A program made the position numbers and the translations under genes. This document shows, piece by piece, positions 21,501-38,634 of a stretch of 64,000 bases of DNA. The stretch's first letter is position 1, and every line of letters starts with the position of its first letter. Below the pieces are notes generated by a model. It was not told the DNA's origin and did not search any database. It saw nothing but the letters and a program-made list of their open reading frames with translations. Where the stretch lies: positions 124,001-188,000 of the forward strand of contig NZ_PSNW01000005.1 of assembly GCF_002930645.1 (NCBI RefSeq), given 5' to 3'. Origin of the DNA: Solimonas fluminis. Lineage in GTDB: Bacteria > Pseudomonadota > Gammaproteobacteria > Nevskiales > Nevskiaceae.

Positions 21501-22796
21501 CTACCTCAGCGCCGCACTCAACCGCCCCAGAGCCTTGCGATACTCCTCCGGCTGGAAGCGGTCGCGGTTCTTCACCGACTCATAGAGCGCGTCCGTCGGC
21601 CCGCGCAGCGCGCCGTTGCTGCCGCCGCGCTCGCCGATCGCCGCCGCCAGCACCTGCGCCGCCATCGCCGTCTGCTGCGCATAGTAGAAGTCGCCGCCCT
21701 GCGCGTTCTCCGCGTTCTGCGCCACGCGCTTGAGCACCTGGCGCAGTTGCCCCGCGTCCGCGGAACCCTGGCGCAGGCGGCCCCAGGCTTCGCGCCGCAG
21801 CCAGCCGCGCAGCTCGCCGGCCTGTTCGCGCAGGCGCGAGGCATCGGTCTCGTACTGCTGGTACAGGCGCTCGCGCTGCACCGCCATCGTGTCGGCCACC
21901 GCCGGGTTCACAGCGGCGGCCCAGGCCTGCACCAGCACCAGCGGCTGGTCCGCCAGCGGCACCTGGCCCGGCGGCAGGCCCGGCGTGCGGTCGGCGCGCC
22001 AGCGGTTGCCGTTCATCGAGTGGTGGCAGGCATCGCAGTCGAACAGCGCCAGCTCCGGGAACAGGCCATGCCCCAGCGCGCCGGTTTCCATCCGTGCCAG
22101 CCAGGCATCGGTCGCCGCTATCTGACCTTCCAGCCAGTTAGTCGCGGTGTCGGTCGCCGGCTTGCGCTGGCGATAGTCGGCATCCACGTCCCAGTGCGGC
22201 GGCATCAGCGCCGTGAAGGTGTCCAGTTCGAACAGCAGCGGCGGATGGCCGGCCGCCATGATCCTGTGGGTCATCGGGTGGGCGGCGTCGCCCAGGTGGC
22301 AGCCGCTGCACATGCCGGCGCGGACCTTGGCATCCCAGGTCGCCGTCATGCCGTGGGCAACGCGCTCCTCCGGGGTCTTCAGCTCGTTGACGTGCGCCGC
22401 GATCCAGCGCTCGGCCGGACCGTGGCAGGCTTCGCAGCCGATGCCGTCCTCCAGCTGGAAGCGCGGACCGCGCGCCTCGGCGGGCGGAGCATGCGCGTGG
22501 CATACCAGGCAGGCCTGCGCCTCGTGCGGCGCGCCCAGGCCAAGCTGGCCCGTGATGCGGCGCGCTCGCTCGGTGAACAGCGTCTTCCAGGCGGAGCCGT
22601 GGGCATCCTTGCGCTGCCAGGTGAAGTATTCGTCCTGGCGGATCTGCCGGTCGGCAAAGGGACGGATGGAGCCGTGGCAGGTGCTGCCGGCACAGTCGGC
22701 GACGCCGAGATTGCGGTCCGGGGCCGGCGCAGCCGCAACGGGCACCAGTGCCGACCACAGCAGTGCAAGGCAGACCGCGAGAAATTGGCGTCGCAT
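21501..22796 (-). CDS. Periplasmic multiheme cytochrome c (cytochrome c554-like)
   Basis: 431 residues with a signal peptide ending near PVAAA. Four canonical haem sites are present: CLVCH, CEACH, CSGCH and CDACH. A fifth possible site, CAGSTCH, has four residues between the cysteines instead of two and lies right after the signal peptide. The C-terminal 170 residues are helical and contain no cysteine. The start at MRRQF was preferred because it begins a normal signal peptide and has GGAG upstream. It is transcribed divergently from the six-gene redox operon, with 227 nt between the starts, and probably exchanges electrons with it in the periplasm. Confidence 0.88.
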   Translation of the reverse strand: MRRQFLAVCLALLWSALVPVAAAPAPDRNLGVADCAGSTCHGSIRPFADRQIRQDEYFTWQRKDAHGSAWKTLFTERARRITGQLGLGAPHEAQACLVCHAHAPPAEARGPRFQLEDGIGCEACHGPAERWIAAHVNELKTPEERVAHGMTATWDAKVRAGMCSGCHLGDAAHPMTHRIMAAGHPPLLFELDTFTALMPPHWDVDADYRQRKPATDTATNWLEGQIAATDAWLARMETGALGHGLFPELALFDCDACHHSMNGNRWRADRTPGLPPGQVPLADQPLVLVQAWAAAVNPAVADTMAVQRERLYQQYETDASRLREQAGELRGWLRREAWGRLRQGSADAGQLRQVLKRVAQNAENAQGGDFYYAQQTAMAAQVLAAAIGERGGSNGALRGPTDALYESVKNRDRFQPEEYRKALGRLSAALR

Positions 22797-23023
22797 GGAT
22801 CGAGCTCCGATCGGCAGCTGGCTGTGGAGCAATATAAACGCAGGCGATCCACCTCACTACTCCCCGCCACCCGTGTTTCTCCGAATCCGACGAATCCGAC
22901 GTGCGGAGCGTCACATTCGTACAAGCGCCATCGCCGGAACTGCGCACTGGAACACTGGCGCCATCCGTCGGATTGCGCCTAAAGTAGGTTCTACGCAGCC
23001 GACCGAGCCAGAAAGAGCCAGGT

Positions 23024-25414
23024 ATGGTCCCAGGGAGCGTCAAGATCGCGATAGTCGGGTCCGGGCCTGCCGGGCTTTCCGCCGCAGCGCGTGCCGCAGA
23101 GCTCGGGCTCTCGCATGTGCTGCTGGAAGCCGAGAGCTGGCTTTCGAACACCATCTATCGGTACCAGAAGGGCAAGCACGTCATGGCCGAGCCGGACGTG
23201 CTGCCGTTGCGTTCGCCGCTGGCGTTCACCGCCGGCAAGCGCGAAGCCATTCTCGAGGCCTGGAACAGCGGCACCGCGAAGCTCGGCGTCAACGTCGCGC
23301 ATCGTGCCCGCGTCAGCGCCATCGGCGGGCAGAAGGGCGCCTTCACCATCACGCTGGACGGCGGCGCCACGCTGCAGGCGGAGGCCGTGGTGCTGGGCAT
23401 CGGCCTGCAGGGCAACCTGCGCAAGCTCGGCTGCCCCGGCGAGGACCTGGACTGGGTGCAGTACCAGCTCGACGACCCCGACGAGTACAAGGGCGAGACC
23501 ATCGTGGTGGTCGGCGCCGGCGACGCGGCGATCGAGAACGCCATCGCCCTGGCCGAGAACAACAAGGTCTACATCCTCAACCGCCGCGACGAGTTCGACC
23601 GCGCCAAGCCCGGCAACCTTTCCGGCATCCTCAAGGCGATCGAGGACGGCAAGCTCACCTGCCTGTACAACACCAAGCCGGTGGCGGCGGAGGACACGCC
23701 CTCCGGCAAGCGCCTGCGCGTCGCCACCAACGACGGCGAGACCGAGCTGGCGGTGGACCGCGTGATCGCGCGCCTCGGCGCCACGCCGCCGCGCGCCTTC
23801 GTCGAGAGCACCGGCATCCAGTTCCCCAGCAAGGACCCCAACAGCGTACCGGCGGTGTCGGCGCAGTACGAGTCCAACGTGCCGGGCCTGTACATCATCG
23901 GCGCACTGGCGGGCTTCCCGCTGATCAAGCAGGCGATGAACCAGGGCTACGAGGTCATCGAGTTCATCGAAGGCCGCACGGTCGAGCCCGCCGACACGCC
24001 GCTGCTGCGCGACAAGTTCGCCGTGCTGCCCGAGATCACCGACATCGAGGAAGCGCTGGCCACCATGCAGCGCCGCGTGCCGATCCTCAAGCCGCTGACG
24101 CCGCTGCAGATGCGCGAGTTCATGATCGACTCCGACATCCGCGCCCCCGCCGACGGCGAGACGATCTTCGAGCTCAACGACTACACCGATACCTTCTACT
24201 CCATCGTCTCCGGCACGGTGGAGATCCAGGTGGACCCCGCCGACCCGTCCAAGAAGTTCACCCTGGGCAAGGGCGAATTCTTCGGCGAGATGAGCCTGAT
24301 CTCGGGCCGCCGGCGTTCGGCCACGGTGCGCGCCGGCGAGAAGTGCGTGCTGATCGAGACGCCGCGCCGCTCGATGAACAAGCTGATCAACTCGGTGGCG
24401 GCGGTCAAGCGCGTCATCGACGAGGTATTCCTGCGCCGCATCATCCAGGGCAAGATCGCGCCGACGCTGCCGCCGGAGGAGATCGCCGACCTGGTGAGCA
24501 GCGCCGAGGTGCGGCAGTTCCGCCCCGGCGAGGTCCTGTTCAACGAGGGCGACGCCGGCGACGCCCTGCACCTGATCCGCAAGGGCTCGGTCACCGTGTC
24601 CCGCGAGATCGGCGGCAAGGACGTGGTGCTGGCCTATGTGCCGGCCGGCCAGTACGTGGGCGAGATGGCCCTGGTCAGCGACCTGCCGCGCTCCGCCACC
24701 GCGCGCGCCGCGGTGGCCACCGAGACCATCCGGCTCGACGGCGTGGCCTTCAAGGACCTGATGATGCGGCGCACCCAGGTGCGCGACCGCGTGCAGGAGG
24801 TCTACCGCTCGCGCGTCGCGCAGAACGCGGTGGCCCAGGCCCGCCCGATGGGCGACGTGCTGGAATTCATGATGTCGCAGGGCCTGGGCGAGGCCACCGA
24901 CGTGCTGCTGATCGACGAGTCGCTGTGCGTGCGCTGCGACCAGTGCGAGAAGGCCTGCTCCGACACCCACGGCAACGTCAGCCGCCTCAAGCGCGAGGCC
25001 GGGCCGACCTTCGACCACCTGCACGTGCCGACCTCCTGCCGCCATTGCGAGCATCCGCACTGCATGAAGGACTGCCCGCCCGACGCGATCAAGCGCGCAC
25101 CGAACGGCGAGGTCCACATCACCGATGCCTGCATCGGCTGCGGCAACTGCGAGCGCAACTGCCCCTACGGCGTGATCCAGATGGGCATCCAGAGCAAGAC
25201 CCGGCCGAGCCTGTGGCGCTGGATGCTGTTCGGCGGCGAGGAGCCCGGCCGCTATCACCCGGCCAAGAAGGACAAGAGCGCCAAGAAGGCGACCAAGTGC
25301 GACATGTGCAAGGACCTGGACGGCGGTCCGGCCTGCGTGCGCGCCTGTCCCACCGGAGCGGCCATGCGCGCCAGCCCCGAGCAGTTCGTGAAGCTGTACC
25401 GGGGAGGCCGCTGA
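23024..25414 (+). CDS. Flavoprotein - two cyclic-nucleotide domains - four-cluster ferredoxin fusion
   Basis: 796 residues, no signal peptide, so cytosolic. Residues 1-320: pyridine-nucleotide-disulfide oxidoreductase fold with FAD motif GSGPAG and NAD(P) motif VVVGAGDAAIENA. About 355-450 and 490-585: two cNMP-binding domains, each with a phosphate-binding cassette (FGEMSLISGRRRSA; VGEMALVSDLPRSA) that keeps the Glu and Arg. About 630-785: DmsB/NrfC-type ferredoxin with cysteine groups CVRCDQCEKAC, CRHCEHPHCMKDC, CIGCGNCERNC and CDMC..CVRAC, enough for four [4Fe-4S] clusters. It could move electrons from NAD(P)H through FAD and Fe-S to the membrane, gated by cAMP/cGMP. The stop shares a base with the next start (TGATG). 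Confidence 0.9.
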   Translation: MVPGSVKIAIVGSGPAGLSAAARAAELGLSHVLLEAESWLSNTIYRYQKGKHVMAEPDVLPLRSPLAFTAGKREAILEAWNSGTAKLGVNVAHRARVSAIGGQKGAFTITLDGGATLQAEAVVLGIGLQGNLRKLGCPGEDLDWVQYQLDDPDEYKGETIVVVGAGDAAIENAIALAENNKVYILNRRDEFDRAKPGNLSGILKAIEDGKLTCLYNTKPVAAEDTPSGKRLRVATNDGETELAVDRVIARLGATPPRAFVESTGIQFPSKDPNSVPAVSAQYESNVPGLYIIGALAGFPLIKQAMNQGYEVIEFIEGRTVEPADTPLLRDKFAVLPEITDIEEALATMQRRVPILKPLTPLQMREFMIDSDIRAPADGETIFELNDYTDTFYSIVSGTVEIQVDPADPSKKFTLGKGEFFGEMSLISGRRRSATVRAGEKCVLIETPRRSMNKLINSVAAVKRVIDEVFLRRIIQGKIAPTLPPEEIADLVSSAEVRQFRPGEVLFNEGDAGDALHLIRKGSVTVSREIGGKDVVLAYVPAGQYVGEMALVSDLPRSATARAAVATETIRLDGVAFKDLMMRRTQVRDRVQEVYRSRVAQNAVAQARPMGDVLEFMMSQGLGEATDVLLIDESLCVRCDQCEKACSDTHGNVSRLKREAGPTFDHLHVPTSCRHCEHPHCMKDCPPDAIKRAPNGEVHITDACIGCGNCERNCPYGVIQMGIQSKTRPSLWRWMLFGGEEPGRYHPAKKDKSAKKATKCDMCKDLDGGPACVRACPTGAAMRASPEQFVKLYRGGR

Positions 25415-26334
25415 TGGCACAGACGCCTCATGGGAGCTTCCTGCGCCACCGGGGCTACCGCTACCTCAAGCTGGCCAGCCTGCTCTGCATCGTCTGCATC
25501 CTCATCTACGGGTGGCACGACCCGCAGGACGGCCCCAACGGCGGCAGCTGGCTGGGCTACACCCTGGGCACCGTCGGTGCCGGCCTGATCGGCTGGCTGG
25601 CCTGGCTGGGCGTGCGCAAGCGCCGCTACAGCTCCACTGCCGGCACGGTCAAGGGCTGGCTTTCCGCCCACGTCTACCTGGGCCTGGCGCTGATCACCGT
25701 CGCCACGCTGCATACCGGATTCCAGTTCGGCTGGAACATCCATACCGCGGCCTACGTGCTGATGCTGATGGTGATCCTCAGCGGCATCTTCGGCATCGGC
25801 GTCTACGTGCGCATGCCCACGCTGATCACCGAGAACATGGGCGCTTCCGACCGCGAGACGCTGATCGACGAGATCCTGGACCTCAACCAGCAGGCCCTGA
25901 AGCTGGCCGACCCGCTCGGCCCCGAGGTCCACCGCATCATCGCCCGCTCCACCGAGCGCATGCGCCTGGGCGGCGGGCTGTGGGCGCAGCTGTTCGGCCC
26001 GCTGCCGCCGGGACGCCGCGCGATCGACGAGCTGCGCAAGATCGTCGTCGACGAGGAACGCGCGGCCAATGCCAAGACCTTCGATCCGCAGAGCTCCACC
26101 GTGATGTTCATGGCCGGCGAACTGGCGCAGGCCAAGAAGCGCGGCGAGATCGCCGAGAAATCGCGCCAGCTGATGGAGCTGATCGGCCGCCGCAACGCGC
26201 TGATCGTGCGCGTCAACCGCGACATCCAGCTGCACGCGCAGATGCAGATCTGGCTGTACTTCCACGTTCCGCTGACCGTGGCGCTGCTGGCGGCGCTGGC
26301 CGCCCACGTCATCTCCGTGTTCCTCTACTGGTAG
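25414..26334 (+). CDS. Di-haem cytochrome b-like membrane protein
   Basis: 306 residues, five predicted helices: about 19-34, 46-66, 84-104, 112-132 and 283-304. H86 and H100 in the third helix and H284 and H298 in the last are both H-x13-H pairs, the spacing of bis-histidine b-haems in cytochrome b bundles, so two haems could be held between these helices. A soluble loop of about 140 residues (LITENMGASDRETL..) separates helices 4 and 5. Position between the cytosolic flavo-Fe-S protein and a periplasmic decaheme protein suggests the transmembrane electron step. I know no named family for this exact architecture. Confidence 0.8.
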   Translation: MAQTPHGSFLRHRGYRYLKLASLLCIVCILIYGWHDPQDGPNGGSWLGYTLGTVGAGLIGWLAWLGVRKRRYSSTAGTVKGWLSAHVYLGLALITVATLHTGFQFGWNIHTAAYVLMLMVILSGIFGIGVYVRMPTLITENMGASDRETLIDEILDLNQQALKLADPLGPEVHRIIARSTERMRLGGGLWAQLFGPLPPGRRAIDELRKIVVDEERAANAKTFDPQSSTVMFMAGELAQAKKRGEIAEKSRQLMELIGRRNALIVRVNRDIQLHAQMQIWLYFHVPLTVALLAALAAHVISVFLYW

Positions 26335-26341
26335 CGCGCCC

Positions 26342-28126
26342 ATGCGTGTCCTGATCCGCAGCTTCCAGCAGCAGGGCGATCAACGCATCGCCACCGAGCG
26401 CGGCCTGATCGGCGAGCGCCTGACCATCGGCCGCGGCACCAACCAGGACGTCTACACGCCCGACCTGCGCGCCGCGCTGGCCCATGCCGAGATCGTGCAC
26501 GACCGCCGCGGCCCGCTGCTGATCGCCAAGTCCGCCAACGGCGTCTGGATCAACGGCGCACCTGTCGAGAGCGCCAAGCTGGAGGCCGGCGACATCATCG
26601 AGGTCGGCCGTTTCCGCCTCGAGGTCCTGGCCGTGGGCGGCGTGCCCGAGCTGGTGCTGGGCTACGAGGAAAAGCTCAGCCAGGCCGCCGACCTGCAGGC
26701 CCGCAAGGCCTCGCTGAAGACGCGGCTGAGCCACACCCGCCTGTCGCTGCGCGGCATGGCCTGGGGGCTGATGCTGCTGATGCTGGCCGTCGGCCTGCTG
26801 CTGCCGCTGGCCCTGCGCTACGGCAGCAGCCCGGCGGGCGAAACGCCGCGCGACCGCTCGCTGGCGCAGTCCGGCATTCCCTTCGACGATTCGGTCTGGC
26901 TGTCGGGCCCGGTCAGCAGCGTGCACCGCTACTTCGTGGAGGACTGCGCCGCCTGCCACGAGAAGCCCTTCCGCCAGGTGCGCGACAGCGCCTGCCTGGC
27001 CTGCCACAAGGACATGGCGCAGCACAGCGACGATCCGGCGATCCTCGACCACCCGGCCTTCTCCGGACAGCAGTGCACCGACTGCCACCGCGAGCACAAC
27101 GGCACGCACGGCGTGAACGCGCAGTCGCCGACCCTATGCACCGACTGCCATGCCAACCCCGACAAGGAGTTCGCCGCGGCCCGGCTGGCGCCGGCCTCCA
27201 GCTTCAGCAAGGCGCACCCGGAGTTCGCGCCGCGCATCGCCGCGTTCGACGCCAAGACCGGCAAGTTCAGCTTTGCCAAGCAGCGCCAGCCGCCGGCGAC
27301 GCTGCGCGAGGCCACCAACCTGATCTATCCGCATGACGTCCACCTCAATCCCAAGGGCATCGACTCGCCCGAGGGCAAGGTGGTGATGCAGTGCGCCGAT
27401 TGCCACCAGCCCGACTCTCGCGGCGTCAGCTTCGAGCCGGTGAACATGGAGAAGCACTGCTCCAGCTGCCACCGCCTGGACTTCGACCCGGACGATCCGG
27501 ACCGCGAGCTGCCGCACGGCCGGCCCGAGCAGATCCAGGGCGTGGTGCGCGACTACTACTACGCCAAGGCACTGCAGGGCGGCGTCATGGACGGCAAGGC
27601 CCCGGCCGTGGTGCGCGAGCGCCGCCGGCCCGGCGAGACGCTGCCGCGCGACGGCGCCCGCGCCGCGCTGGACTGGGCCGACGGCCGCGCGCGCCAGACC
27701 ATGGTCGACGTGTTCGAGCGCCGCACCTGCCACTACTGCCACCAGGTGCAGCGCAGCGACGACCCGTCCAAGCCCTGGACCGTCGCGCCGGTGAACCTGC
27801 AGGAGCACGCGCTCGACGGCTCGCGCTTCGATCACGCCGCGCACCAGGCGCAGCCCTGCAGCGACTGCCACGGCGCGGACCGCTCCAAGACCAGCGCCGA
27901 CGTGCTGCTGCCCGACCTCAACAGCTGCCGCGACTGCCATGGCGACACCGGCAGCGACCGGCAGGTGCCCTCTGCCTGCACGCTCTGCCACGCCTTCCAC
28001 ATCGCCGGTTCGCATCATTTCGGCGGGCCCGCCAAGGGCCCGAAGCCTGACGACGCCGTGCATGGCGCGGGCAGCGCGAAACCGGCCAAGGCGCCTGGGG
28101 CCGCACCGAAGGAATCGCCGAAATGA
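26342..28126 (+). CDS. FHA domain - membrane helix - decaheme cytochrome c fusion
   Basis: 594 residues. Residues 1-100 form an FHA domain (LTIGRGTNQDV, then NGVWINGAPVESAKLEAGDIIEVG); 138-159 is one membrane helix; 200-550 carries ten CxxCH motifs starting at residues 202, 218, 245, 266, 351, 373, 463, 506, 529 and 546. Haem attachment occurs only in the periplasm, so the FHA domain must be cytosolic. FHA domains bind phosphothreonine peptides, and two Ser/Thr kinases are encoded later in this window. The haem region resembles cytochrome c3/c7-like chains. It starts 7 nt after the b-type gene and overlaps the next by ATGA. Confidence 0.9.
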   Translation: MRVLIRSFQQQGDQRIATERGLIGERLTIGRGTNQDVYTPDLRAALAHAEIVHDRRGPLLIAKSANGVWINGAPVESAKLEAGDIIEVGRFRLEVLAVGGVPELVLGYEEKLSQAADLQARKASLKTRLSHTRLSLRGMAWGLMLLMLAVGLLLPLALRYGSSPAGETPRDRSLAQSGIPFDDSVWLSGPVSSVHRYFVEDCAACHEKPFRQVRDSACLACHKDMAQHSDDPAILDHPAFSGQQCTDCHREHNGTHGVNAQSPTLCTDCHANPDKEFAAARLAPASSFSKAHPEFAPRIAAFDAKTGKFSFAKQRQPPATLREATNLIYPHDVHLNPKGIDSPEGKVVMQCADCHQPDSRGVSFEPVNMEKHCSSCHRLDFDPDDPDRELPHGRPEQIQGVVRDYYYAKALQGGVMDGKAPAVVRERRRPGETLPRDGARAALDWADGRARQTMVDVFERRTCHYCHQVQRSDDPSKPWTVAPVNLQEHALDGSRFDHAAHQAQPCSDCHGADRSKTSADVLLPDLNSCRDCHGDTGSDRQVPSACTLCHAFHIAGSHHFGGPAKGPKPDDAVHGAGSAKPAKAPGAAPKESPK

Positions 28127-30126
28127 TCCGCCGGGCTTCGCGCACGCTCGGCAGCCTCGCCGCGCTGGCCTTGCTGGCTGCCTGCGGCGGAGGCGGCGGG
28201 CCCGGTCCGGGCGGGGCCGGCATCGGCAACGGGCCGGCGCCCTGCTCCGGCCGCTGCCAGGACACGCCGACGCGGCTCACCGTGGCCGACATCCAGCAGA
28301 TCATCGCCCAGGGCGTGCAGGAGGCGCAGGCACGCAGCGCTCCCGCCACCATCGTCGTCATCGACCGCGTCGGCAACGTGCTGGCGGCCTACCAGATGAC
28401 CGGGGCGCCGCCCACCATCCGCATCACCTCCGGCACCGGCGCCAGCGGCGGCATCGACGGCGTGGAGATCGTGCCGTCCACGCTCGGCGCCATCGCCAAG
28501 GCCCTGACCGGCGCCTACTTCTCGTCGGAGGGCAATGCCTTCTCGACGCGCACCGCCAACCAGATCATCCAGGAGCACTTCAACCTGGAGGAACGCTTCA
28601 CGCCGGGCGGCCCGCTGTTCGGCGTGCAGATCAGCCAGCTGCCCTGCTCCGACATCTCGCGCCGCTACAACGGCGTGGGCGTGGACCCCGGCCCGCACCG
28701 CTCGCCGATCGGCTTCGCCGCCGACCCCGGCGGCCTGCCGCTGTACAAGGAAGGCACCGTGGTCGGCGCGGTGGCGGTGATCGCCGACGGCGTCTATGGC
28801 CTGGTGAAGGACGATCTCGGCACCGACCGCAACCTCGACGAGCTGATCGCCGTGGCCGCCAGCTTCGGCTTCGGCGCGCCGCGTGACCGCCGCGCCGACG
28901 TCATCACGCTCGACGGCAAGACGCTGCGCTACGCCAACGTCGACTTCGACGACCTCGCGCGGGACCCGGCCACCGCGCCCGCCTTCGCCACGCTGACGCC
29001 CGCGGTCGGCAGCCTGGTCGCGATCCGCGGCTACGCCGACCCGGTGATCCGCGCCGGCACCGCCTTCGGCCAGGCGGACTCGGGCATCCGCCCGGCCAGC
29101 CTCGTCGCCGAGCCGGAGCTCGCCGCCGTCGACGGCTTCGTGCTGGTGGACGAGCTCAACAACCGCCGCTTCCCGCCCGTCAACGGCACCGACGGCCTGC
29201 TGACGCAGCAGGAGGTCAAGGACCTGCTGTCCACCTCCGTCGCGCTGGCCAACCGCACGCGCAGCCAGGTGCGCCGCCCGTTGGGCGCCAGCGCCGGCAT
29301 CCACGTGGTGATCGTCGATACCAATGGCGCGGTGATCGGCGTGGCACGCACGCGCGATGCCCTGGTCGACGCCACCGACGTCACCGTGCAGAAGGCGCGC
29401 ACCTCGATCCTGTTCTCGGCCGCCGGCTCGGGCACCGCGCTGCAGGCCCTGCCCGACGCCGAGTACCTCGCGCCGGGCCCCGCCGTCGCCAGCCTGCGCA
29501 CCGAATCCATCGGCCAGTACGTCACCGCCTTCCGCAGCTTCCTCGGCCAGCCCGCCGGCCTGGACGACGGTGCCTTCGCCTGGTCCACGCGCGCGGTCGG
29601 CAACATCTCCCGCCCCTTCTTCCCCGACGGCATCGACGGCAAGCCGCCGGGTCCGCTGAGCAAGCCGCCGGGCGAGTGGAGCATCTTCTCCACCGGCCTG
29701 GAGCTGGACCTGGTCTACAACGCGGTGATCCGCCACATCGCCTTCGTCGTCGGCCTGGCCGCCACCGATGTCGGCGTCGGCTGCACCGGCTACCAGGGTG
29801 TCTCGGCGGGCTTCGAGCCGGTGGTGAACCCGATCCCGAAGATCGCCAACGGCATCACCCTGTTCGCCGGCGGCTTCCCGATCTACCGCGGCGGCACCCT
29901 GGTGGGCGCCATCGGCCTGTCCGGCGACGGCCTGGAGCAGGACGACTTCCTGCCCTTCCTCGCCAGCGATGCGGTCGGCAAGCTGCCCGGCGGGTCCATC
30001 GGCAATGCGCCCAAGGCGGTCCGTGCCGACCAGATCCGCGTGGGCGACGTGAACCTGCGCTATCTCGTCTGCCCGCCCAAGCCCTTCCTCGACAGCAACG
30101 AGCAGAGCGTCTGCGCCGGCCTATGA
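28123..30126 (+). CDS. Lipoprotein with two GlcG/HbpS-type (DUF336) domains
   Basis: 667 residues. The signal sequence ends in a lipobox (LLAAC) followed by a glycine-rich linker. A GlcG/HbpS-like domain begins near residue 48 (TVADIQQIIAQGVQEA..IVVIDRVGNVLAAYQM) and a second near residue 360 (LLTQQEVKDLLSTSVALANR..VVIVDTNGAVIGVARTRD); a third partial unit (FPIYRGGTLVGAIGLSGDGLEQDD) completes the C-terminus. HbpS from this family binds haem; most members are uncharacterised. No CxxCH motif is present. Its place between cytochrome genes suggests haem delivery or structural support at the envelope. Both ends overlap neighbours by ATGA. Confidence 0.82.
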   Translation: MIRRASRTLGSLAALALLAACGGGGGPGPGGAGIGNGPAPCSGRCQDTPTRLTVADIQQIIAQGVQEAQARSAPATIVVIDRVGNVLAAYQMTGAPPTIRITSGTGASGGIDGVEIVPSTLGAIAKALTGAYFSSEGNAFSTRTANQIIQEHFNLEERFTPGGPLFGVQISQLPCSDISRRYNGVGVDPGPHRSPIGFAADPGGLPLYKEGTVVGAVAVIADGVYGLVKDDLGTDRNLDELIAVAASFGFGAPRDRRADVITLDGKTLRYANVDFDDLARDPATAPAFATLTPAVGSLVAIRGYADPVIRAGTAFGQADSGIRPASLVAEPELAAVDGFVLVDELNNRRFPPVNGTDGLLTQQEVKDLLSTSVALANRTRSQVRRPLGASAGIHVVIVDTNGAVIGVARTRDALVDATDVTVQKARTSILFSAAGSGTALQALPDAEYLAPGPAVASLRTESIGQYVTAFRSFLGQPAGLDDGAFAWSTRAVGNISRPFFPDGIDGKPPGPLSKPPGEWSIFSTGLELDLVYNAVIRHIAFVVGLAATDVGVGCTGYQGVSAGFEPVVNPIPKIANGITLFAGGFPIYRGGTLVGAIGLSGDGLEQDDFLPFLASDAVGKLPGGSIGNAPKAVRADQIRVGDVNLRYLVCPPKPFLDSNEQSVCAGL

Positions 30127-32408
30127 GAATCCCGCCCTTCCGCAAGCTGGCCGTCGCCGCGCTGCTGGGCAGCAGCCTGTCGGTGCAGGCCGCCGCGGAG
30201 CCGTATCTCTATGGTCCGGTCCGCAGCGGCGAGCAGCTCGCGCGCATCGCCTGGGAACTGCGCCCGGACAAGACCCGCATCGGCACCTGGCAGATGACCG
30301 CCGCGCTGTACCGCGCCAATCCCCGCTCCTTCATCGGGGGCGACATGGAGCGGCTGCGCCCGGGCGCGATGCTGGTGGTGCCCGCGGACGAGGACGTCCG
30401 CCGCGTCGATCCGGAACTGGCGCGGCAGCTCGCGCGCGAGCCGCAGAACGCGCAGGCCCTGCTGGGTGCCGCGGCCCTGCCGGCACCCGCTGCTCCGGCG
30501 CCGGCTGCGGAAGCTGCCGCCGCGCCCGCTGCCGCGGTGGGGCTGACGCTGGCGCCCGCCTCGGTCCCTGCGGCCGCGCCCGCCGCGGAGCCGCCCGCTG
30601 CGGCCACGGCCAAGGTGGTTCCGGCCTGGGCGCCCGATCCTTCGCCGGTATCGCCGCCCGCGATCCCGCCGGCCGTGCCCGCCCAGCCCCCGGGGCTCGC
30701 CGCGGCACCCGCGCCGATCGTGCCGCCCGAGCGCCGCCGTCCCGACGCCGATGCGCGCCAGATTCCGCCCGATACCGAGCCGCTGCCCGACCCCAACCGC
30801 CTGAGCCGGCTGGCGCCGGTGGCGATGCCCGAGCCCTGGAAGCAGTACGACAAGATGCCGGTGCCGGACCGCTGGCGCATCCTCAACTCGCTGGGCATCG
30901 TGCCGCAGCGCTGGTGGGACCCGTACAACCAGAACACCTGGAAGGGCGACAAGCCGATCTACAAGAACGAGCACTTCGTCTCGTTCAACGCCACGCTCGA
31001 CAGCGTCTACGAATACCGCGAGCAGCCGACCCCGATCGGCGGCAACGGCACCGGCGAAGGCGGCCTGGTGAACATCTTCGGCCGGCCGCAGCAATACACG
31101 CTGGCCAGCAACCTGATCCTGTCGGCGGCCTACATCAAGGGCGACACGGTCTACCGGCCGCCCGACATCGAGCTGCGCTTCACCCCGGTGCTGAACTACA
31201 ACTACACCGCGGTGCAGGAAGCCGGCGCCATCAACATCAACCCGGCCAAGGGCCTCGACCGCCGCGATTCCTTCGTCGGCATCCAGGAACTGTTCGCCGA
31301 CTTCGACCTGCGCGCCGTCTCCGACCGCTACGACTTCGACAGCATCCGCTTCGGCATCCAGCCCTTCTCCAGCGACTTTCGCGGCTTCCTGTTCCAGGAC
31401 AGCCAGCTCGGCGTGCGCCTGTTCGGCACCCGCGACAACAACCGCTACCAATACAACCTGGGCTGGTTCCGCCGCCTGGAGAAGGACACCAACAGCGGCC
31501 TCAACGACATCGGCGCCGCGCTGCGCGACGACGACCTCTTCGTGTTCAGCCTCTACCGCCAGGACCTGCCGGTCTACGGCTTCACCTCGCAGGGCATCGT
31601 CGCCTACAACCGCAACCGCGACAGCGGCCGCTTCTACGACAAGAACGGCTTCCTGCAGCGGCCCGCGGCCATCGGCACCGAAACCATCCGCGAGTACGAC
31701 GTGGTCTACCTCGGCTACAACGGCGACGGGCACTTCGGCCGCCTCAACCTGACCACCTCGGCCTACGCCGCGCTGGGCCGCCAGGACCGCGGCGTGTTCT
31801 TCGACGACACGCGCGACATCCGCGGCTTCTTCGCCGCGGCGGAAGCCTCCTACGACATGGACTGGATGCGCTTCCGCCTGAGTGCGCTCTACGGCAGCGG
31901 CGACCGCGACCCCTACGACGACACCGCCAGCGGCTACGACGCCATCTTCGAGAACCCGATCTTCGCCGGCGCCGACACCAGCTTCTGGATCCGCCGCCCG
32001 GTGCCCCTGATCGGCGGCGGCGGCGTGGCGCTGTCGCAGGTCAACGGCGTGCTCGCCAACCTGCGTCCGAGCAAGGAGTTCGGCCAGTCCAACTTCGAGA
32101 ACCCGGGCATCGTGCTGGTCGGCGTCGGCGCCGACTTCGACGTGCTGCCCCAGCTGCGCATCTTCGGCAATGCCAACTACCTGCGCTTCGACGACACCGC
32201 CATCCTCGAACTGATGCGCAGCCAGGGCGGCATCGGCCGCGAGATCGGATGGGACCTGTCGGTGGCGGCCATCTGGCGGCCCTTCTTCACCCAGAACATC
32301 ATCGTGCGCGTCTCCGGGGCCGTGCTGCTGCCCGGCGAAGGCTTCCGCGCGCTCTACCCCGACGAGGACGGCTACTCCGTGCTCGCCAACCTGATCTTCT
32401 CCTACTGA
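30123..32408 (+). CDS. FimV-like LysM domain fused to an outer-membrane beta-barrel
   Basis: 761 residues with a signal peptide (1-22). Residues about 25-95 match the FimV N-terminal LysM-like domain (YGPVRSGEQLARIAWELRPD..ALYRANPRSFIGG..LRPGAMLVVP), which binds peptidoglycan. A Pro/Ala linker spans about 115-230. From about 285 to the end alternating aromatic strands and turns with many Arg/Asp/Tyr (YDFDSIRFGIQPFSSDFRGF, LGVRLFGTRDNNRYQYNLGW) and the end YSVLANLIFSY indicate a barrel. It would be the outer-membrane pore of this operon, tied to the cell wall. The barrel family is unknown to me; it is smaller than MtrB-type barrels as I remember them. Confidence 0.8.
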   Translation: MRIPPFRKLAVAALLGSSLSVQAAAEPYLYGPVRSGEQLARIAWELRPDKTRIGTWQMTAALYRANPRSFIGGDMERLRPGAMLVVPADEDVRRVDPELARQLAREPQNAQALLGAAALPAPAAPAPAAEAAAAPAAAVGLTLAPASVPAAAPAAEPPAAATAKVVPAWAPDPSPVSPPAIPPAVPAQPPGLAAAPAPIVPPERRRPDADARQIPPDTEPLPDPNRLSRLAPVAMPEPWKQYDKMPVPDRWRILNSLGIVPQRWWDPYNQNTWKGDKPIYKNEHFVSFNATLDSVYEYREQPTPIGGNGTGEGGLVNIFGRPQQYTLASNLILSAAYIKGDTVYRPPDIELRFTPVLNYNYTAVQEAGAININPAKGLDRRDSFVGIQELFADFDLRAVSDRYDFDSIRFGIQPFSSDFRGFLFQDSQLGVRLFGTRDNNRYQYNLGWFRRLEKDTNSGLNDIGAALRDDDLFVFSLYRQDLPVYGFTSQGIVAYNRNRDSGRFYDKNGFLQRPAAIGTETIREYDVVYLGYNGDGHFGRLNLTTSAYAALGRQDRGVFFDDTRDIRGFFAAAEASYDMDWMRFRLSALYGSGDRDPYDDTASGYDAIFENPIFAGADTSFWIRRPVPLIGGGGVALSQVNGVLANLRPSKEFGQSNFENPGIVLVGVGADFDVLPQLRIFGNANYLRFDDTAILELMRSQGGIGREIGWDLSVAAIWRPFFTQNIIVRVSGAVLLPGEGFRALYPDEDGYSVLANLIFSY

Positions 32409-32409
32409 C

Positions 32410-35400
32410 ATGCGCCTGCTCGCCGCCCTGCTGCTGATCGCACTGACCGGACCGGCAATCGCCTCCGGCGGCGAAAAGCCCGTGGAACGCAGCTACGTCA
32501 TCGCCGACTTCGCGCCGCGCTTCCAGCGCCAGGACCAGGCCGACGCCAAGTCGGCCGGCTGCCAGTCCTGCCATACCGCCAGCGACCAGCACACCATGCA
32601 TGCCAACCCGGCCGTGGTGCTGGGCTGCACCGACTGCCACGGCGGCAACGCGCGGGTCTTCGTGGACCCGGGTCTGGACCGCCAGGCGCCGGCCTATCTC
32701 GACACGCTGGCCAAGGCCCACGTGCTGCCGCGCTACCCCAAGGCCTGGAACTGGCCGTCCAGCCGCAACCCGGAACACAGCTTCGCCCTGCTCAACCAGG
32801 AAGCGCCGGAGTTCATCCGCTTCGTCAACCCGGGCGACTACCGCGTCACGCGCGAGGCCTGCGGCTCCTGCCACCTGCCGATCATCGAGGCCGCCGAGCG
32901 CAGCCTGATGTCCACCGGCGCCATGCTCTGGGGCGGCGCCGCGTACAACAACGGCATCCTGCCGTTCAAGCGCTACGTCACCGGCGAGTCCTACACCCGC
33001 GAAGGCATCCAGGCGCGCCTCGACGCCCCGGTGAAGCCCGACGACAACATGAAGAAGAAGGGCGTGCTGGAAGCGCTCTACCCGATGCCGGCCTGGGAGG
33101 TCGTGCCGCCGTCCGACATCTTCCGCGTGTTCGAGCGCGGCGGCCGCAACATCTTCAGCCTGTTCCCGGAAACCGGCAATCCCGGCACCGGCGGCAACAT
33201 CCAGCGCCTGGAGGAGCCGGGCCGCCCCGACCTCAAGCAGTCCAACCGCGGCCCCGGCACCGGCCTGCGCATCGCCGTGCCCGTGCTGAACATCCACAAG
33301 ACCCGCCTCAACGACCCCTTCTCCTGGTTCCTGGGCACCAACGACCAGCCGGGCGACTACCGGTCCTCCGGCTGCTCCGGCTGCCACGTGGTCTATGCCA
33401 ACGACCGCGACCCTCGGCATTCCGGCGGCTACGCCGCCGCGGGCCACACCGGCAAGACGCAGACCCGCGACCCCACGATCCCCAGGGACGAGGAAGGCCA
33501 CCCGCTCAAGCACGTCTTCACCCGTGCCATCCCCACCAGCCAGTGCATGATCTGCCACATGCACCAGCCGAACATCTTCCTCAACTCGATGCTCGGCTAC
33601 ACCATGTGGGACTACGAGACCGGGGCCGACCAGATGTGGCCCAAGAAGCAGAAGTACCCGGACAGCGCCGAGATCCACAAGATCAACATGCGCAATCCCG
33701 AGGAAGCGGCGATCCGCGGCAACTGGGGCAAGCGCGAATTCCTCGACAAGGTCTCCGAGCTGAACCCGGACATCAAGGACACCCAGTTCGCCGACTACCA
33801 CGGCCACGGCTGGAACTTCCGCGCCATCCACAAGCGCGACCGCAAGGGCAACCTGCTCGACAAGGACGGCAACATCGTCGCCGACGACGACCCCAGGAAG
33901 TTCAGCAAGGCCGTGCACCTGTCGTCGATCCACGTCGACGTCGGCATGCACTGCGTAGACTGCCACTTCTCCCAGGATGCCCACGGCAACGGCCACATCT
34001 ACGGCGAAGTGGCGCAGGCCGTGGAGATCGACTGCCAGGACTGCCACGGCACCGCCGACCGCTATCCCACGCTGAAGACCTCCGGTCCCGCCGCCCCGCC
34101 CGGCGGCAGCGACATGGCGCGCCTGCGCGTGCAGGACGGCCGCAAGCGCTTCGAGTGGCGCGGCAACAAGCTGTTCCAGCGCTCCGCACTGGACCCGAAG
34201 AAGGAATGGGAGGTGTCGCTGGTCAAGGACTCCGTGACCCCCGGCAACGCGCACTACAACGAAAAGGCCGCGCGCGCCAAGCTGATGTCCAAGGATACGG
34301 TCGACCAGCTCTTCGGCCTGGACGTGTCGCGCGAGAACCGCGCCCACAAGGACGACGAGGTGATGTGCATCACCTGCCACACGTCCTGGACCACCTCCTG
34401 CTTCGGCTGCCACCTGCCGATCCAGGCCAACTGGAAGACCCCGCGCAACCACTTCGAAGGCGGCGACAGCCGCAACTACGCCACCTACAACCCGCAGGTG
34501 GTGCGCGACGACTTCTACATGATCGGCAAGCACGGCGAGGCCAAGGGCAACCGCATCGCGCCGATCCGCTCCACCTCGGCCCTGGTGCTGTCGTCCACCA
34601 ACGCCAGCCGCGAGCGCATCTACATCCAGCAGGCGCCGGTGGCCGCCAGCGGCCATTCCTCGCAGGCCTTCGCGCCGCATTACCCGCATACCGAGCGCAA
34701 GACCGAGACCAAGACCTGCGAGGACTGCCATCTGTCGAAGAGCGGCGACAACAACGCCTGGATGACCTCGCTGCTGGGCCTGGGCACCAACTTCGTCAGC
34801 TTCGTCGGCTTCAACGCCTGGCTGGGCCTCGAAGGCGGCGTGGAGGCCGTGCAGGTCACCGAGTGGGACGAGCCGCAGGCCGTGATCGGGTCCTACCTGC
34901 ACCGCTACGCCTACCCCGACTGGTACAAGGCCCACGAGGGCCGCGGCCGCGAACTGACGACCGCCCACGACCATTCCGCCCGCGGCCCGGTGCAGTGCCT
35001 GCAGCTGCGCGGCGAATACCTCTACGTGGCCGAAGGCAAGGGCGGCATGCGCGCCTTCGATGTCGCCAGCATCGCCAACAAGGGCTTCTCGCAGCGCATC
35101 ATCACCGCGCCGTTCTCGCTGCTGGGCCAGGACATCCACATCGGCTCGAAGAACGCCAGCTGCGTCGCCCTGCCCACCAACCAGCCGATCAACCCGCTGC
35201 GCAACCAGGGCGACCTGATGCGCATCGTCAACCAGGAACAGCCCTTCCACCCGATCTACCACTACGCCGTCATCAGCGACACGGTGGAAGGCCTGATCCT
35301 GGTCAACGTCGATACCCTGCAGGACGGCGAGCCGCGCAACAACGACCTCAAGCGCGCCCTCACCTGGGACGGCGGCGGCGCGCTCAAGGGCGCGCGCCAC

Positions 35401-36195
35401 GTGGTGCTGGCCGGCTACCGCGCCTATGTCTCGGCCGACGCCGGCATCGTCGTGGTGAACCTCGACGACCCGATGAAGCCGCAGGTGGAGGCCATCATCC
35501 CGCTGCGCGACGTGCGCAGCGTCGCCGTGCAGTTCCGCTACCTGTTCGCCGTCACCGGCGCCGGCCTGCAGACCATCGACATCACCAGGCCCGCGCAGCC
35601 GCGCGTGATCGAAGGCGCCCTGGTGCCGCTGGCCGACGCCCGCCGCGTGCACCTGGCGCGCACCTACGCCTACGTCGCCGCCGGCAAGGACGGCCTGGCC
35701 ATCGTCGACATCGAGAAGCCCGAGGCCCCGGTGCTGTTCCAGCGCTACGACGCCGACGGCCGCATCAAGGACGCACGCGACGTCACCGTGGGCAGCACCA
35801 ATGCCTCGCTGTTCGCCTACGTCGCCGACGCCAGGACCGGCCTGCACGTGATCCAGCTCACCGCGCCCGACACCCAGCCCAAGTTCTACGGCTTCTCGCC
35901 GGAGCCGCGGCCGGTCTGGATCGCCCATCGCCAGACCACCCGGCCCGCGCTGGCCCTGAGCAAGGGCCTGGAACGCGACCGCGCCGTGGACGAGACCGGT
36001 GGCCAGATCGCCGTCTTCGGCCGCATCGGCTCGCGCCCCTTCAACGTCGAGGAGATGAAGCGCCTCTACCTCGACAAGAACGGCGAGCCCTGGTTCGTGA
36101 GCAACCAGTTCAAGGCGGCCAGGCCGCAGAAGAAGGCGGCGGCCGAAGAGAACAGGAAGTCCTCCGGCCAGAAGAGCGAGAAGCGACGGCCCTGA
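32410..36195 (+). CDS. Secreted decaheme cytochrome c with LVIVD-repeat propeller
   Basis: 1261 residues with a signal peptide (LLAALLLIALTGPAIA). Ten CxxCH motifs between about residues 50 and 775: CQSCH, CTDCH, CGSCH, CSGCH, CMICH, CVDCH, CQDCH, CITCH, CFGCH and CEDCH. From about 865 to 1160 come LVIVD-type repeats (YLYVAEGKGGMRAFDV, AGIVVVNLDDPMKPQ, GLQTIDITRPAQPR, GLAIVDIEKPEAP), expected to fold as a beta-propeller. The C-terminus is very basic (RKSSGQKSEKRRP). It could be the outermost, substrate-facing cytochrome, with the propeller binding a partner or surface. Last gene of the operon, 1 nt after the barrel gene; a family 1 repeat follows. Confidence 0.9.
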   Translation: MRLLAALLLIALTGPAIASGGEKPVERSYVIADFAPRFQRQDQADAKSAGCQSCHTASDQHTMHANPAVVLGCTDCHGGNARVFVDPGLDRQAPAYLDTLAKAHVLPRYPKAWNWPSSRNPEHSFALLNQEAPEFIRFVNPGDYRVTREACGSCHLPIIEAAERSLMSTGAMLWGGAAYNNGILPFKRYVTGESYTREGIQARLDAPVKPDDNMKKKGVLEALYPMPAWEVVPPSDIFRVFERGGRNIFSLFPETGNPGTGGNIQRLEEPGRPDLKQSNRGPGTGLRIAVPVLNIHKTRLNDPFSWFLGTNDQPGDYRSSGCSGCHVVYANDRDPRHSGGYAAAGHTGKTQTRDPTIPRDEEGHPLKHVFTRAIPTSQCMICHMHQPNIFLNSMLGYTMWDYETGADQMWPKKQKYPDSAEIHKINMRNPEEAAIRGNWGKREFLDKVSELNPDIKDTQFADYHGHGWNFRAIHKRDRKGNLLDKDGNIVADDDPRKFSKAVHLSSIHVDVGMHCVDCHFSQDAHGNGHIYGEVAQAVEIDCQDCHGTADRYPTLKTSGPAAPPGGSDMARLRVQDGRKRFEWRGNKLFQRSALDPKKEWEVSLVKDSVTPGNAHYNEKAARAKLMSKDTVDQLFGLDVSRENRAHKDDEVMCITCHTSWTTSCFGCHLPIQANWKTPRNHFEGGDSRNYATYNPQVVRDDFYMIGKHGEAKGNRIAPIRSTSALVLSSTNASRERIYIQQAPVAASGHSSQAFAPHYPHTERKTETKTCEDCHLSKSGDNNAWMTSLLGLGTNFVSFVGFNAWLGLEGGVEAVQVTEWDEPQAVIGSYLHRYAYPDWYKAHEGRGRELTTAHDHSARGPVQCLQLRGEYLYVAEGKGGMRAFDVASIANKGFSQRIITAPFSLLGQDIHIGSKNASCVALPTNQPINPLRNQGDLMRIVNQEQPFHPIYHYAVISDTVEGLILVNVDTLQDGEPRNNDLKRALTWDGGGALKGARHVVLAGYRAYVSADAGIVVVNLDDPMKPQVEAIIPLRDVRSVAVQFRYLFAVTGAGLQTIDITRPAQPRVIEGALVPLADARRVHLARTYAYVAAGKDGLAIVDIEKPEAPVLFQRYDADGRIKDARDVTVGSTNASLFAYVADARTGLHVIQLTAPDTQPKFYGFSPEPRPVWIAHRQTTRPALALSKGLERDRAVDETGGQIAVFGRIGSRPFNVEEMKRLYLDKNGEPWFVSNQFKAARPQKKAAAEENRKSSGQKSEKRRP

Positions 36196-36227
36196 GGTTC
36201 ATCCCCGATGGGCCTATTGGCCCAACC

Positions 36228-36272
36228 GTTCGCCCTGAAGTCCTGAGCCTGTCGAAGGATCGAAGGGTGAAC
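36228..36272. repeat. Dispersed inverted repeat (family 1), interrupted copy
   Basis: GTTCGCCCT..AGGGTGAAC arms with GAGCCTGTCGAAGG inside and extra bases on both sides of the core. It marks the junction between the redox operon and the accessory patch. Confidence 0.75.
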
Positions 36273-36280
36273 GCGATCAG

Positions 36281-37198: not shown

Positions 37199-37218
37199 GA
37201 GCTTGTATATCTCGTAAA

Positions 37219-37268
37219 GGGAGGGTCTCGGCCCGCCTGCCGCGGAAGGCGGGTCAAGACCCGCCCTA
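37219..37268. repeat. Dispersed inverted repeat (family 2)
   Basis: GGAGGGTCTCGGCCCGCC..GGCGGGTCAAGACCCGCCC: several nested dyads. On the minus strand it reads GTAGGGCGGGTCTTGACCC, close to the element at 38105. Confidence 0.75.
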
Positions 37269-37309
37269 CATGCACTGAGGTTACAGATGGCCGATATGGC
37301 AACCAGGCC

Positions 37310-37338
37310 GTTCGCCCTGAGCCTGTCGAAGGGTGAAC
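37310..37338. repeat. Dispersed inverted repeat (family 1), cleanest copy
   Basis: GTTCGCCCT, GAGCCTGTCGA, AGGGTGAAC: nine-base arms, eight or nine pairing. A further partial family 2-like stretch (GTAGGGCGGAGGCAGAGCC) follows near 37376. Confidence 0.85.
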
Positions 37339-37417
37339 TGATGCAGGTAACCGGCCCGTGCTCCAGGCCCCATCCGTAGGGCGGAGGCAGAGCCGTGGGT
37401 GAGCATGGGGTCCGGCG

Positions 37418-37981: not shown

Positions 37982-38104
37982 TCGACGTGCTCTCTCCCTG
38001 ACACCGAATGCCTCTTCTCAGCCACGGCCCCGAGAAGCGGGACCATGGCTGGAGTGCTTGATTGGGCCTATGTGTTGATCCTTTATGCATGAACTTTAGT
38101 CCGT

Positions 38105-38130
38105 GTAGGTCGGGTCTCGACTCGCCCTAC
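38105..38130. repeat. Dispersed inverted repeat (family 2), short copy
   Basis: GTAGGTCGGGT, CTCG, ACTCGCCCTAC: imperfect dyad directly after the stop of the neighbouring minus-strand gene, where an attC site would otherwise be expected. Confidence 0.7.
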
Positions 38131-38133
38131 GTG

Positions 38134-38568: not shown

Positions 38569-38570
38569 AG

Positions 38571-38630
38571 GCCTAACGTCTAGATTGAGCCGCGCGACGC
38601 GGCCGCGTCGGCTTGAAGTAATGGTTGGGC
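38571..38630. other. Integron attC recombination site (60 bp)
   Basis: GCCTAAC (consensus RYYYAAC) at one end and GTTGGGC (consensus GTTRRRY) at the other, exactly 60 bp apart. Inner arms TTGAGCCG and CGGCTTGAA pair with one unpaired base, the usual strand-selecting asymmetry, and the centre is a 16-bp palindrome (CGACGCGGCCGCGTCG). It sits directly between two minus-strand genes, after the stop of one and before the start of the next, as in a cassette array. Confidence 0.85.
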
Positions 38631-38634
38631 CTCT

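Follow-up and report, generated by a model that had tools for sequence, protein, structure and literature searches.

What does a bacterium do with a set of genes that places a cytosolic NAD(P)H oxidoreductase, multihaem cytochromes, and an outer-membrane barrel side by side? Such a seven-gene locus appeared in an open reading frame (ORF) listing at positions 21501–36195 of a 64,000-nt window, the whole stretch of Solimonas fluminis DNA that we analyzed (GCF_002930645.1, contig NZ_PSNW01000005.1, 124,001–188,000). A sequence-only reading of the window had proposed that the set spans every compartment from NAD(P)H to the cell surface, that it carries built-in signalling domains, and that none of its parts resembles an Mtr, Pio, or Omb subunit. 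Our analysis makes it fairly probable that the set is a relative of the proposed PCC4 conduits that exports electrons from cytosolic NAD(P)H to a terminal decahaem cytochrome at the outer membrane, under possible control by cyclic nucleotides.

Gene content and conservation of the locus

Domain scans with Pfam and NCBIfam bore out the gene identities as first read. The first gene of the operon, fadFeS (23024–25414, + strand), encodes a cytosolic FAD/NAD(P)H oxidoreductase with two cNMP-binding domains and four [4Fe-4S] sites, recognized by matches to Pyr_redox_3, two cNMP_binding stretches, and Fer4 families and by its invariant residues. Downstream on the same strand lie a b-type cytochrome-like inner-membrane protein (25414–26334), identified by hhalign and by its two WX3HX13H motifs and SGXXG, and a protein that joins a cytosolic FHA domain through one transmembrane helix to a periplasmic decahaem cytochrome of the c7/c3 type (26342–28126). 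The outer half, also on the + strand, comprises a multidomain protein with three HbpS-like (GlcG family) stretches and a lipobox that marks it as a lipoprotein (28123–30126); a protein with a FimV-type (LysM-like) N-terminal core, a Pro/Ala linker, and a predicted 18-stranded AlgE-type outer-membrane β-barrel at about residues 284–761 (30123–32408); and a secreted decahaem cytochrome with a C-terminal LVIVD β-propeller at about residues 800–1190, found by Pfam and in the predicted model (32410–36195). Divergent from the operon is a c554-like cytochrome (21501–22832, − strand; PF13435), predicted to be secreted. Its listed TTG start may be too early: an ATG lies 12 codons further on, followed by what looks like a signal peptide.

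The six operon genes are as tightly spaced as first described, with gaps or overlaps of at most 7 nt: a 1-nt overlap between fadFeS and the membrane protein gene, a 7-nt gap before the FHA-decahaem gene, 4-nt overlaps on either side of the GlcG gene, and a 1-nt gap between the barrel and LVIVD genes. Ten CXXCH motifs in each decahaem protein and four in the c554-like protein give the 24 c-type haem sites originally claimed as a minimum, or 25 with one CX4CH in the latter. These motifs are not chance occurrences, because their numbers hardly vary when complete homologues from the 80 loci that we kept are compared: ten in 73/73 LVIVD proteins and in 59/60 FHA-type decahaem proteins (one has nine), and four CXXCH plus one CX4CH in 48/48 c554-type proteins.

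We looked for relatives of the set across genomes, as had been suggested. A scan of 84,980 species, each represented by a single genome, found the LVIVD decahaem encoded in at least 594 stretches (counted as stretches, not as genomes). The set is a widespread module carried by many soil and water bacteria; isolates among the hosts listed include Duganella, Stagnimonas, Haliea, Limnobacter, and Steroidobacter, as well as Sphingobium. All six operon genes were present in 54 of the 80 loci and all seven genes in 40. Of the 26 loci without all six, 24 run into a cut within 10 kb on one side or both, and in both full-flank exceptions the FAD/cNMP/Fe-S gene is present elsewhere in the genome. A full-length LVIVD protein also turned up in 19 more genomes of the same order; 17 of these carried all six genes, and in the other two the set is cut at a contig end. 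A genome-wide search for an inner-module gene in seven LVIVD-bearing genomes found it in every one, and the barrel gene precedes the LVIVD gene in 77 of the 80 loci, the remaining three being cut on that side.

Separate occurrence of the genes in relatives had been named as grounds for doubting a single system, and it was found in part. In some relatives the inner half sits away from the outer half, three genomes carry the inner half with no LVIVD match, and a full GlcG homologue is absent from the genomes of two relatives. Still, the idea that these are separate redox genes that became neighbours by chance is disfavoured to the point of being highly improbable: the six genes stay together in 54/80 loci while their order changes across Alpha-, Beta-, and Gammaproteobacteria, and even the two full-flank exceptions retain the entry enzyme. 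We do not count genome G214 as a counterexample to linkage; it has the other five operon genes and no full LVIVD gene on another contig, but its contig stops directly after the barrel gene, which makes it uninformative.

Recent horizontal transfer as the main mode of spread found no support. A FastTree phylogeny of the LVIVD protein, built from the window and 73 of the 80 loci and with classes taken from submitters' titles, requires 8 class changes, compared with 31.2 for shuffled labels and a minimum of 4, and one of its branches separates 14 Alphaproteobacteria from the rest. No LVIVD relatives were found in phages.

The inner module and its putative signalling domains

The flavin domain of fadFeS is thioredoxin-reductase-like, with no CXXC seen. 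All 16 Fe-S cysteines are invariant in 28/28 chosen sequences, as are the FAD and NAD(P) glycines. In the membrane protein, both WX3HX13H motifs occur in 59/59 complete homologues and SGXXG is missing from one; a crude hydropathy count gave five transmembrane helices in 19, four in 24, three in 14, and two in 2 of them. NCBIfam returned scattered weak matches only for this protein.

These features recall PCC4 which, together with PCC3, was proposed as a putative porin-cytochrome conduit by He et al., 2017 (PMC5566968). The inner-membrane protein (IMP) of PCC4 has two WX3HX13H, SGXXG, and five transmembrane helices, and in PCC4 subgroup II a gene for an Fe-S protein (pfam13247) lies upstream of the IMP gene (PMC5566968). 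The window fadFeS, directly upstream of its IMP gene, matches PF13247 above the cut-off (E 1.5e-11). By hhalign, four of the proteins align with PCC4-type counterparts: the IMP with PCC4-like IMPs (99.3%, E 4e-20), the FHA-decahaem with the PCC4-type decahaem (99.5%, E 2e-22), fadFeS with the PCC4-type cNMP-FeS protein (100%, E 3.7e-55), and the c554-like protein with the PCC4-type tetrahaem (99.3%, E 2e-20). The single control, FHA-decahaem against LVIVD decahaem, gave 36% and E 4e-4. Homology was not detected between the barrel and PCC4-cluster porins (hhalign 0.2%, with a profile of two sequences only), nor was a PCC4 counterpart detected for the GlcG or LVIVD protein. On these comparisons, the inner half looks like a cousin of PCC4 and the outer half looks different. 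The earlier statement that no such combination had been described thus needs qualifying for the inner parts and stands for the GlcG, barrel, and LVIVD proteins. Among the papers listed by our literature searches, we found no description of the full seven-gene set and no experiment on it; the portions seen of papers on Methylobacter and Nitrosomonas EET describe other systems.

The two kinds of signalling domain fared differently. With the Glu and Arg of the phosphate-binding cassette as the ligand motif, both cNMP domains largely keep their ligand residues (Glu 27/28 and Arg 28/28 in domain 1; 22/28 and 27/28 in domain 2). The FHA domain is inconstant: Pfam recognizes it in 13/26 FHA-type decahaem proteins, and in 8/60 homologues the sequence ahead of the transmembrane helix is too short to hold it. 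Judged by what we take to be the Arg/Ser binding-loop motif, it does not look like a constant reader of phosphothreonine, as the loop alignment is gapped in 5–6 of 26 sequences, Arg is present in 17/26, and the column presumed to hold the phosphothreonine-binding Ser has Ser in 2/26 and Ala in 9/26.

A calcineurin-like phosphoesterase is encoded beside the inner module in genome G274 and on two Sphingobium plasmids, and one record annotates it as cpdA. Cyclase-like matches of at least 60 bits occurred in 7, and the Sphingobium phosphoesterase in 2, of 121 stretches (several stretches per genome). We rejected a cyclase or phosphodiesterase as a regular neighbour and claim no general link from these counts. 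Because such neighbours are rare, it is the domains themselves that suggest control by cyclic nucleotides.

The outer half and the direction of electron flow

We considered whether the barrel could be a solute porin, which would weaken the reading as an electron conduit; this is partly the case. The barrel model has 18 strands, and its best PDB matches are AlgE and Occ/OprD porins (against 3rbh_D, AlgE: VIA Z 28.9, 2.8 Å over 360 residues, 13% identity). Pfam Alginate_exp (PF13372) matched 7/42 barrels at E ≤ 1 (best 1.4e-6) and did not match the window protein. The barrel of the MtrB type has 26 strands, and a cytochrome wire threaded through the predicted barrel is doubtful because an 18-strand barrel of AlgE/Occ size is much smaller. 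Conservation was equal in outer loops and strands (0.67 each), higher in periplasmic turns (0.78), and 0.80 in a 71-residue outer loop. Outer loops as conserved as strands would fit a constant partner or plug on the outer side.

We place the LVIVD protein at the barrel, with about even odds that it sits on or reaches through the outer face. Its predicted model has a mean pLDDT of 66.7 and is weak in the haem part, and the propeller dominates its fold-match lists; its profile gave two weak matches only (E 0.56) against solved structures. ExtM, a Geobacter protein reported in the outer and cytoplasmic membranes and in the periplasm (PMC5877670), is its NCBIfam neighbour, matched weakly by 14/14 LVIVD members. 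A search of the host's own genome with an NrfB-like Pfam model found no match. The LVIVD protein lacks a lipobox pattern in 69/73 cases, and we identified no export route for it beyond Sec; both points count against export of electrons to the surface, as does the fact that many of the named hosts are aerobic heterotrophs.

A possible, though less than likely, alternative is a periplasmic reductase with its own porin, in which the barrel passes a small substrate or product, the inner module feeds a soluble LVIVD decahaem, and no electrons cross the outer membrane. Barrels of this fold are solute or polymer channels, as the Alginate_exp matches also suggest. Identity to the window protein is 64–74% for the LVIVD decahaem and 25–47% for the FHA-type, and the far stronger conservation of the former would suit an enzyme better than a wire. 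Haem-core relatives of 762–854 aa with no propeller match occur in five genomes in which motif counts over the 19-kb stretch showed no such gene set, and the Geobacter cluster of ExtM includes a porin and is implicated in selenite and tellurite reduction (PMC5877670). However, the ExtM likeness covers one short stretch of the haem part (67.9 bits against a cut-off of 800), and the conserved long outer loops together with the lipoprotein (a simple lipobox pattern in 40/60 GlcG homologues) suggest that the proteins assemble at the outer membrane.

We consider cyclic-nucleotide-controlled export of NAD(P)H electrons to an outer-membrane-associated terminal cytochrome the most likely function. NAD(P)H would reduce the FAD domain of fadFeS, and electrons would pass through its four [4Fe-4S] clusters to two putative b haems in the membrane protein and across the inner membrane to the anchored FHA-type decahaem. 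From there they would reach an assembly at the outer membrane, perhaps by way of the c554-like protein. This assembly would consist of the peptidoglycan-anchored AlgE-type barrel, the GlcG lipoprotein, and the LVIVD decahaem-propeller as terminal redox subunit; cAMP or cGMP could control the entry enzyme through its two cyclic-nucleotide-binding domains. As a conserved set, the parts plausibly connect NAD(P)H in the cytosol with the outer membrane, which agrees in part with the span to the cell surface first proposed. A stronger version, in which a widespread branch of the PCC4 lineage uses cAMP or cGMP to switch NAD(P)H electrons onto a decahaem-propeller at the outer surface, carried on the AlgE-type barrel, is one that we offer tentatively and would not expect to hold in full.

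In the opposite direction, the chain could take up electrons from outside the cell, for example from Fe(II) or Mn(II), and deliver them to quinone or NAD(P)+. PCC3 and PCC4, whose inner-membrane module is homologous, were drawn this way with electron donors hypothesized outside the cell (PMC5566968). Electron uptake is nonetheless improbable here, as the entry enzyme is fused to an NAD(P)H domain of the thioredoxin-reductase type. Nor are most named hosts known to be lithotrophs.

If the stronger, nucleotide-switched version is correct, a second messenger would directly control how electrons cross the envelope, and PCC4 may share this feature, to judge by the cNMP domains on the Fe-S subunits of PCC4-like clusters. 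The set ties the proposed PCC4 class to a larger family, and in both the enzyme at which electrons would enter carries cyclic-nucleotide-binding domains; culturable hosts are on offer for testing such systems. The spread of the set also points to multihaem trans-envelope chains as a common feature of bacteria that are not known for metal respiration.

Comparison with known systems

The set shares with PCC4 the IMP signature, the adjacent upstream Fe-S gene, a periplasmic decahaem, a c554-type cytochrome, and a barrel gene, and in L188, a PCC4-like cluster that we scanned with Pfam, the Fe-S protein likewise has two cNMP stretches. The flavin domain here is fused and of the thioredoxin-reductase type, whereas L188 has a separate FAD/NAD/2Fe-2S protein, and the decahaem N-terminus is FHA or absent here but Cys-rich in the PCC4 type. 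PCC4 has a porin and three multihaem cytochromes, whose haem sites number 4, 5, and 10, and it has no extracellular multihaem cytochrome (PMC5566968). Our set has 10, 10, and 4(+1), with no pentahaem of the L188 kind seen, and because it departs from the PCC4 haem set we call it a sister type. PCC3 has the same IMP signature, and periplasmic and putative extracellular multihaem cytochromes with a porin, but its cytochromes contain low-complexity repeats and more haem sites, with medians of 34 and 21 (PMC5566968) against 10 and 10 here.

Mtr, Mto, and Pio are likewise trans-envelope multihaem chains with an outer-membrane barrel, but theirs is of MtrB size, whereas the 18 strands predicted here form a different fold. 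The claim that no part resembles an Mtr or Pio subunit holds for the curated MtrA/DmsE and OmcA/MtrC models, whose cut-offs were not reached (FHA-decahaem, TIGR03508, 20.9 bits against 192.2; c554-like, TIGR03507, 17 against 209.3; neither listed for the LVIVD decahaem), and is weakened by PF22113 (MtrC/MtrF-like domains), which matches 6/26 FHA-type decahaem proteins (best 4.5e-7) and scores 17.2 against a cut-off of 30 with the window c554-like protein. The ext cluster of Geobacter (extHIJKLMNOPQS) also combines a porin, several multihaem cytochromes, a b cytochrome, and an Fe-S protein, with ExtO described as a Rieske protein (PMC5877670). Part of ExtM is matched by the LVIVD protein, albeit far below the cut-off, and the cluster lists no FAD/cNMP enzyme. 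Finally, AlgE and Alginate_exp proteins share the predicted 18-strand barrel fold, to which the protein here adds an N-terminal LysM- or SH3-like domain and a multihaem gene context.

Gene content and distribution

The seven open reading frames lie where the sequence-only reading had placed them, with a divergent c554-like gene followed by a six-gene run whose members overlap by 1 and 4 nt or are separated by gaps of 1 and 7 nt, and the domain assignments of that reading were borne out by Pfam and NCBIfam. CXXCH motifs number 10 in the FHA-type decahaem protein, 10 in the LVIVD protein and 4 in the c554-like product, which has one CX4CH in addition. For the membrane protein, the sole match in these two libraries was a sub-threshold one to Ni_hydr_CYTB. 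The barrel protein had no match in the Pfam search; its N-terminal core is of the FimV type, and its porin match is weak (25.9 bits against a cut-off of 250).

We used the LVIVD protein to follow the gene set across genomes. Among 61 genomes from its order or from closer relatives, its own included, 21 gave a match (E <= 0.001), and 20 of these 21 matches span most of its length, the one in G039 covering only a 113-residue propeller stretch. Across a phylum-wide sample of 299 genomes, the LVIVD profile matched 15, full-length in 5 (own included); the other 10 matches are short, to haem or propeller stretches. Sixteen plasmid records also match, 13 of them with a query coverage of 80% or more, at 55-61% identity (twelve Sphingobium and one Sphingopyxis). 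A scan of species genomes matched at least 595 stretches, at least 594 of which encode a relative.

Inner and outer modules

To the best 80 of these at least 595 stretches we added 10-kb flanks. All six operon genes are present in 54 of these loci, and the c554-like gene also lies somewhere within the flanks in 40; this is a lower bound, because where c554 precedes the FAD gene it can fall beyond 10 kb. Of the 26 loci without all six, 24 are truncated on at least one flank. Two loci (L075 and L138) are intact where GlcG is expected yet lack it, each being cut on another flank, and a GlcG profile run across both genomes found nothing beyond matches of 37 and 78 positions. Two others with complete flanks (L114 and L127) hold GlcG, barrel and LVIVD genes alone, with a full FAD/cNMP/Fe-S homologue elsewhere in both genomes. 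Another 19 genomes of the order encode a full LVIVD protein. The fetched stretches of 17 contain all six genes, in 16 cases with the c554-like gene, and those of the other two end at contig edges.

Gene order is not constant among loci. Several Betaproteobacteria, Duganella among them, have the FAD gene at the far end, after c554. Two Sphingobium plasmids carry an inner operon (FAD, membrane protein, FHA-decahaem and a phosphoesterase) and a separate outer one (c554, GlcG, barrel and LVIVD), and in one genome (G274) a distance of ~670 kb separates these two groups. The Sphingopyxis plasmid bears the outer set, with no match to the FAD/cNMP/Fe-S enzyme on the plasmid itself. Conversely, three genomes (G061, G094 and G213, the last 76% complete) have the inner set and no match in the LVIVD search. 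Since the groups lie apart in some hosts and the inner set occurs without an LVIVD match in these three genomes, the gene set consists of two modules, inner and outer, of which the inner can stand alone. An inner-module gene was present in 7 of 7 LVIVD-bearing genomes where it was sought genome-wide. The FHA domain is dispensable.

In genomes without an LVIVD match (L183:7262-10618 and L184:3052-6423), a single ORF of ~1120 aa fuses the FAD/cNMP/Fe-S enzyme to the b-type membrane protein, and an FHA-type cytochrome that has 9 CXXCH comes next.

The outer module and its surroundings

A barrel model built from 42 sequences (mean pLDDT 71.9, the N-terminal 220 residues mostly below 50) predicts 18 long strands with short periplasmic loops and mostly longer outer loops. 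Its best match is AlgE (Foldseek 1.2e-16; VIA Z 28.9), followed by Occ/OprD porins. Conservation is 0.67 in both outer loops and strands and higher, at 0.78, in periplasmic turns. The N-terminus is LysM-like in the window, and 7 of 42 relatives have an SH3-like one; this suggests that the barrel protein is anchored to peptidoglycan. The LVIVD protein ends in a predicted C-terminal propeller, with seven-bladed propellers among the best matches, and its haem part has a short stretch in common with ExtM, a cytochrome of the Geobacter ext cluster, in 14 of 14 members. Simple patterns detect a lipobox in GlcG (40/60), c554-type (26/48) and LVIVD proteins (4/73). The gene set could serve either surface electron export or a reductase in the periplasm that has a channel of its own.

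In five other genomes, the LVIVD haem part has stretches in common with cytochromes that are 762-854 aa long and contain 10 or 12 CXXCH (L214:8039-10327, L215:8044-10425, L216:8177-10741, L217:8209-10560 and L218:7902-10349); the last of these adjoins a gene with 5 CXXCH, NapC-like by eye.

Near the operon, 2.3 kb from the c554-like gene, lies a membrane-attached class III adenylate/guanylate cyclase gene (17810-19180, minus strand; PF00211), adjoined by an AbiEi-type antitoxin/regulator gene (19543-20151, plus strand). The cyclase is kept in the fetched stretches of 2 of 3 genus relatives and is rare elsewhere (7 of 121 stretches). Directly downstream of the operon is a low-G+C stretch with small orphan genes (36281-39357, minus strand), G+C being 0.58-0.59 in the two 2-kb bins of 36001-40000 versus ~0.69. 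This may be an immunity-gene island, because the product of 37418-37981 resembles a SUKH/SMI1-type immunity protein by eye.

Relation of the inner module to PCC4

Among the papers listed for searches of an open library, none joins these parts by its listing, though print beyond that library may differ; there, the sole match to PCC4 and IMP terms was He et al. 2017 (PMC5566968). In its main text, this putative porin-cytochrome conduit type comprises a porin and three cytochromes with 4, 5 and 10 haem sites, and its inner-membrane protein (IMP) bears two WX3HX13H motifs and SGXXG, subgroup II adding an upstream pfam13247 Fe-S gene. The present membrane protein shares this signature (two WX3HX13H in 59/59 sequences, SGXXG in 58/59). 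Its profile matches 26 of 299 genomes, nine strongly (own included) and 17 weakly.

We compared 17 neighbourhoods of membrane-protein matches with that main-text description of PCC4. One (L188) fits in full, with a pentahaem protein, a barrel, an FAD/NAD/2Fe-2S flavoprotein, a c554-type tetrahaem protein, a two-cNMP Fe-S protein, an IMP and a decahaem protein. Six fit in part (L185, L186, L189, L190, L194 and L198), the c554 type having 3 or 4 CXXCH where seen. Three (L182-L184) hold an inner set of the present type, and L187:9794-12491, where an IMP with two WX3HX13H adjoins an ORF with 24 CXXCH, looks more like PCC3, another such conduit type. In the remaining fetched IMP neighbourhoods, motif counts showed no complete cluster.

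The Glu and Arg typical of ligand-binding domains are largely retained in both cNMP domains of the present enzyme. PCC4-like Fe-S subunits likewise bear cNMP-binding domains, by Pfam in L188:7903-9603 and by alignment in L185, L186, L189, L190 and L198; across the six aligned, the first domain has Arg in 6/6 and Glu as the majority residue. These domains may have gone unremarked before, because the term 'cyclic nucleotide' is absent from the main text of PMC5566968.

Profile comparisons of present with PCC4-like families gave 99.3% for the IMP (E 4e-20), 99.5% over 195 columns for the decahaem proteins (E 2e-22), 100% for the cNMP-Fe-S proteins (E 4e-55) and 99.3% over 157 columns for the c554 type (E 2e-20); a single control pair, FHA-decahaem against LVIVD decahaem, gave 36% (E 4e-4). 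The barrel and PCC4-cluster porin profiles gave 0.2%, the latter built from two sequences only. In the reverse search, the sole match of the PCC4-type IMP profile in this genome was the present membrane protein. We regard the electron-entry half as a cousin of PCC4 and the outer half as distinct.
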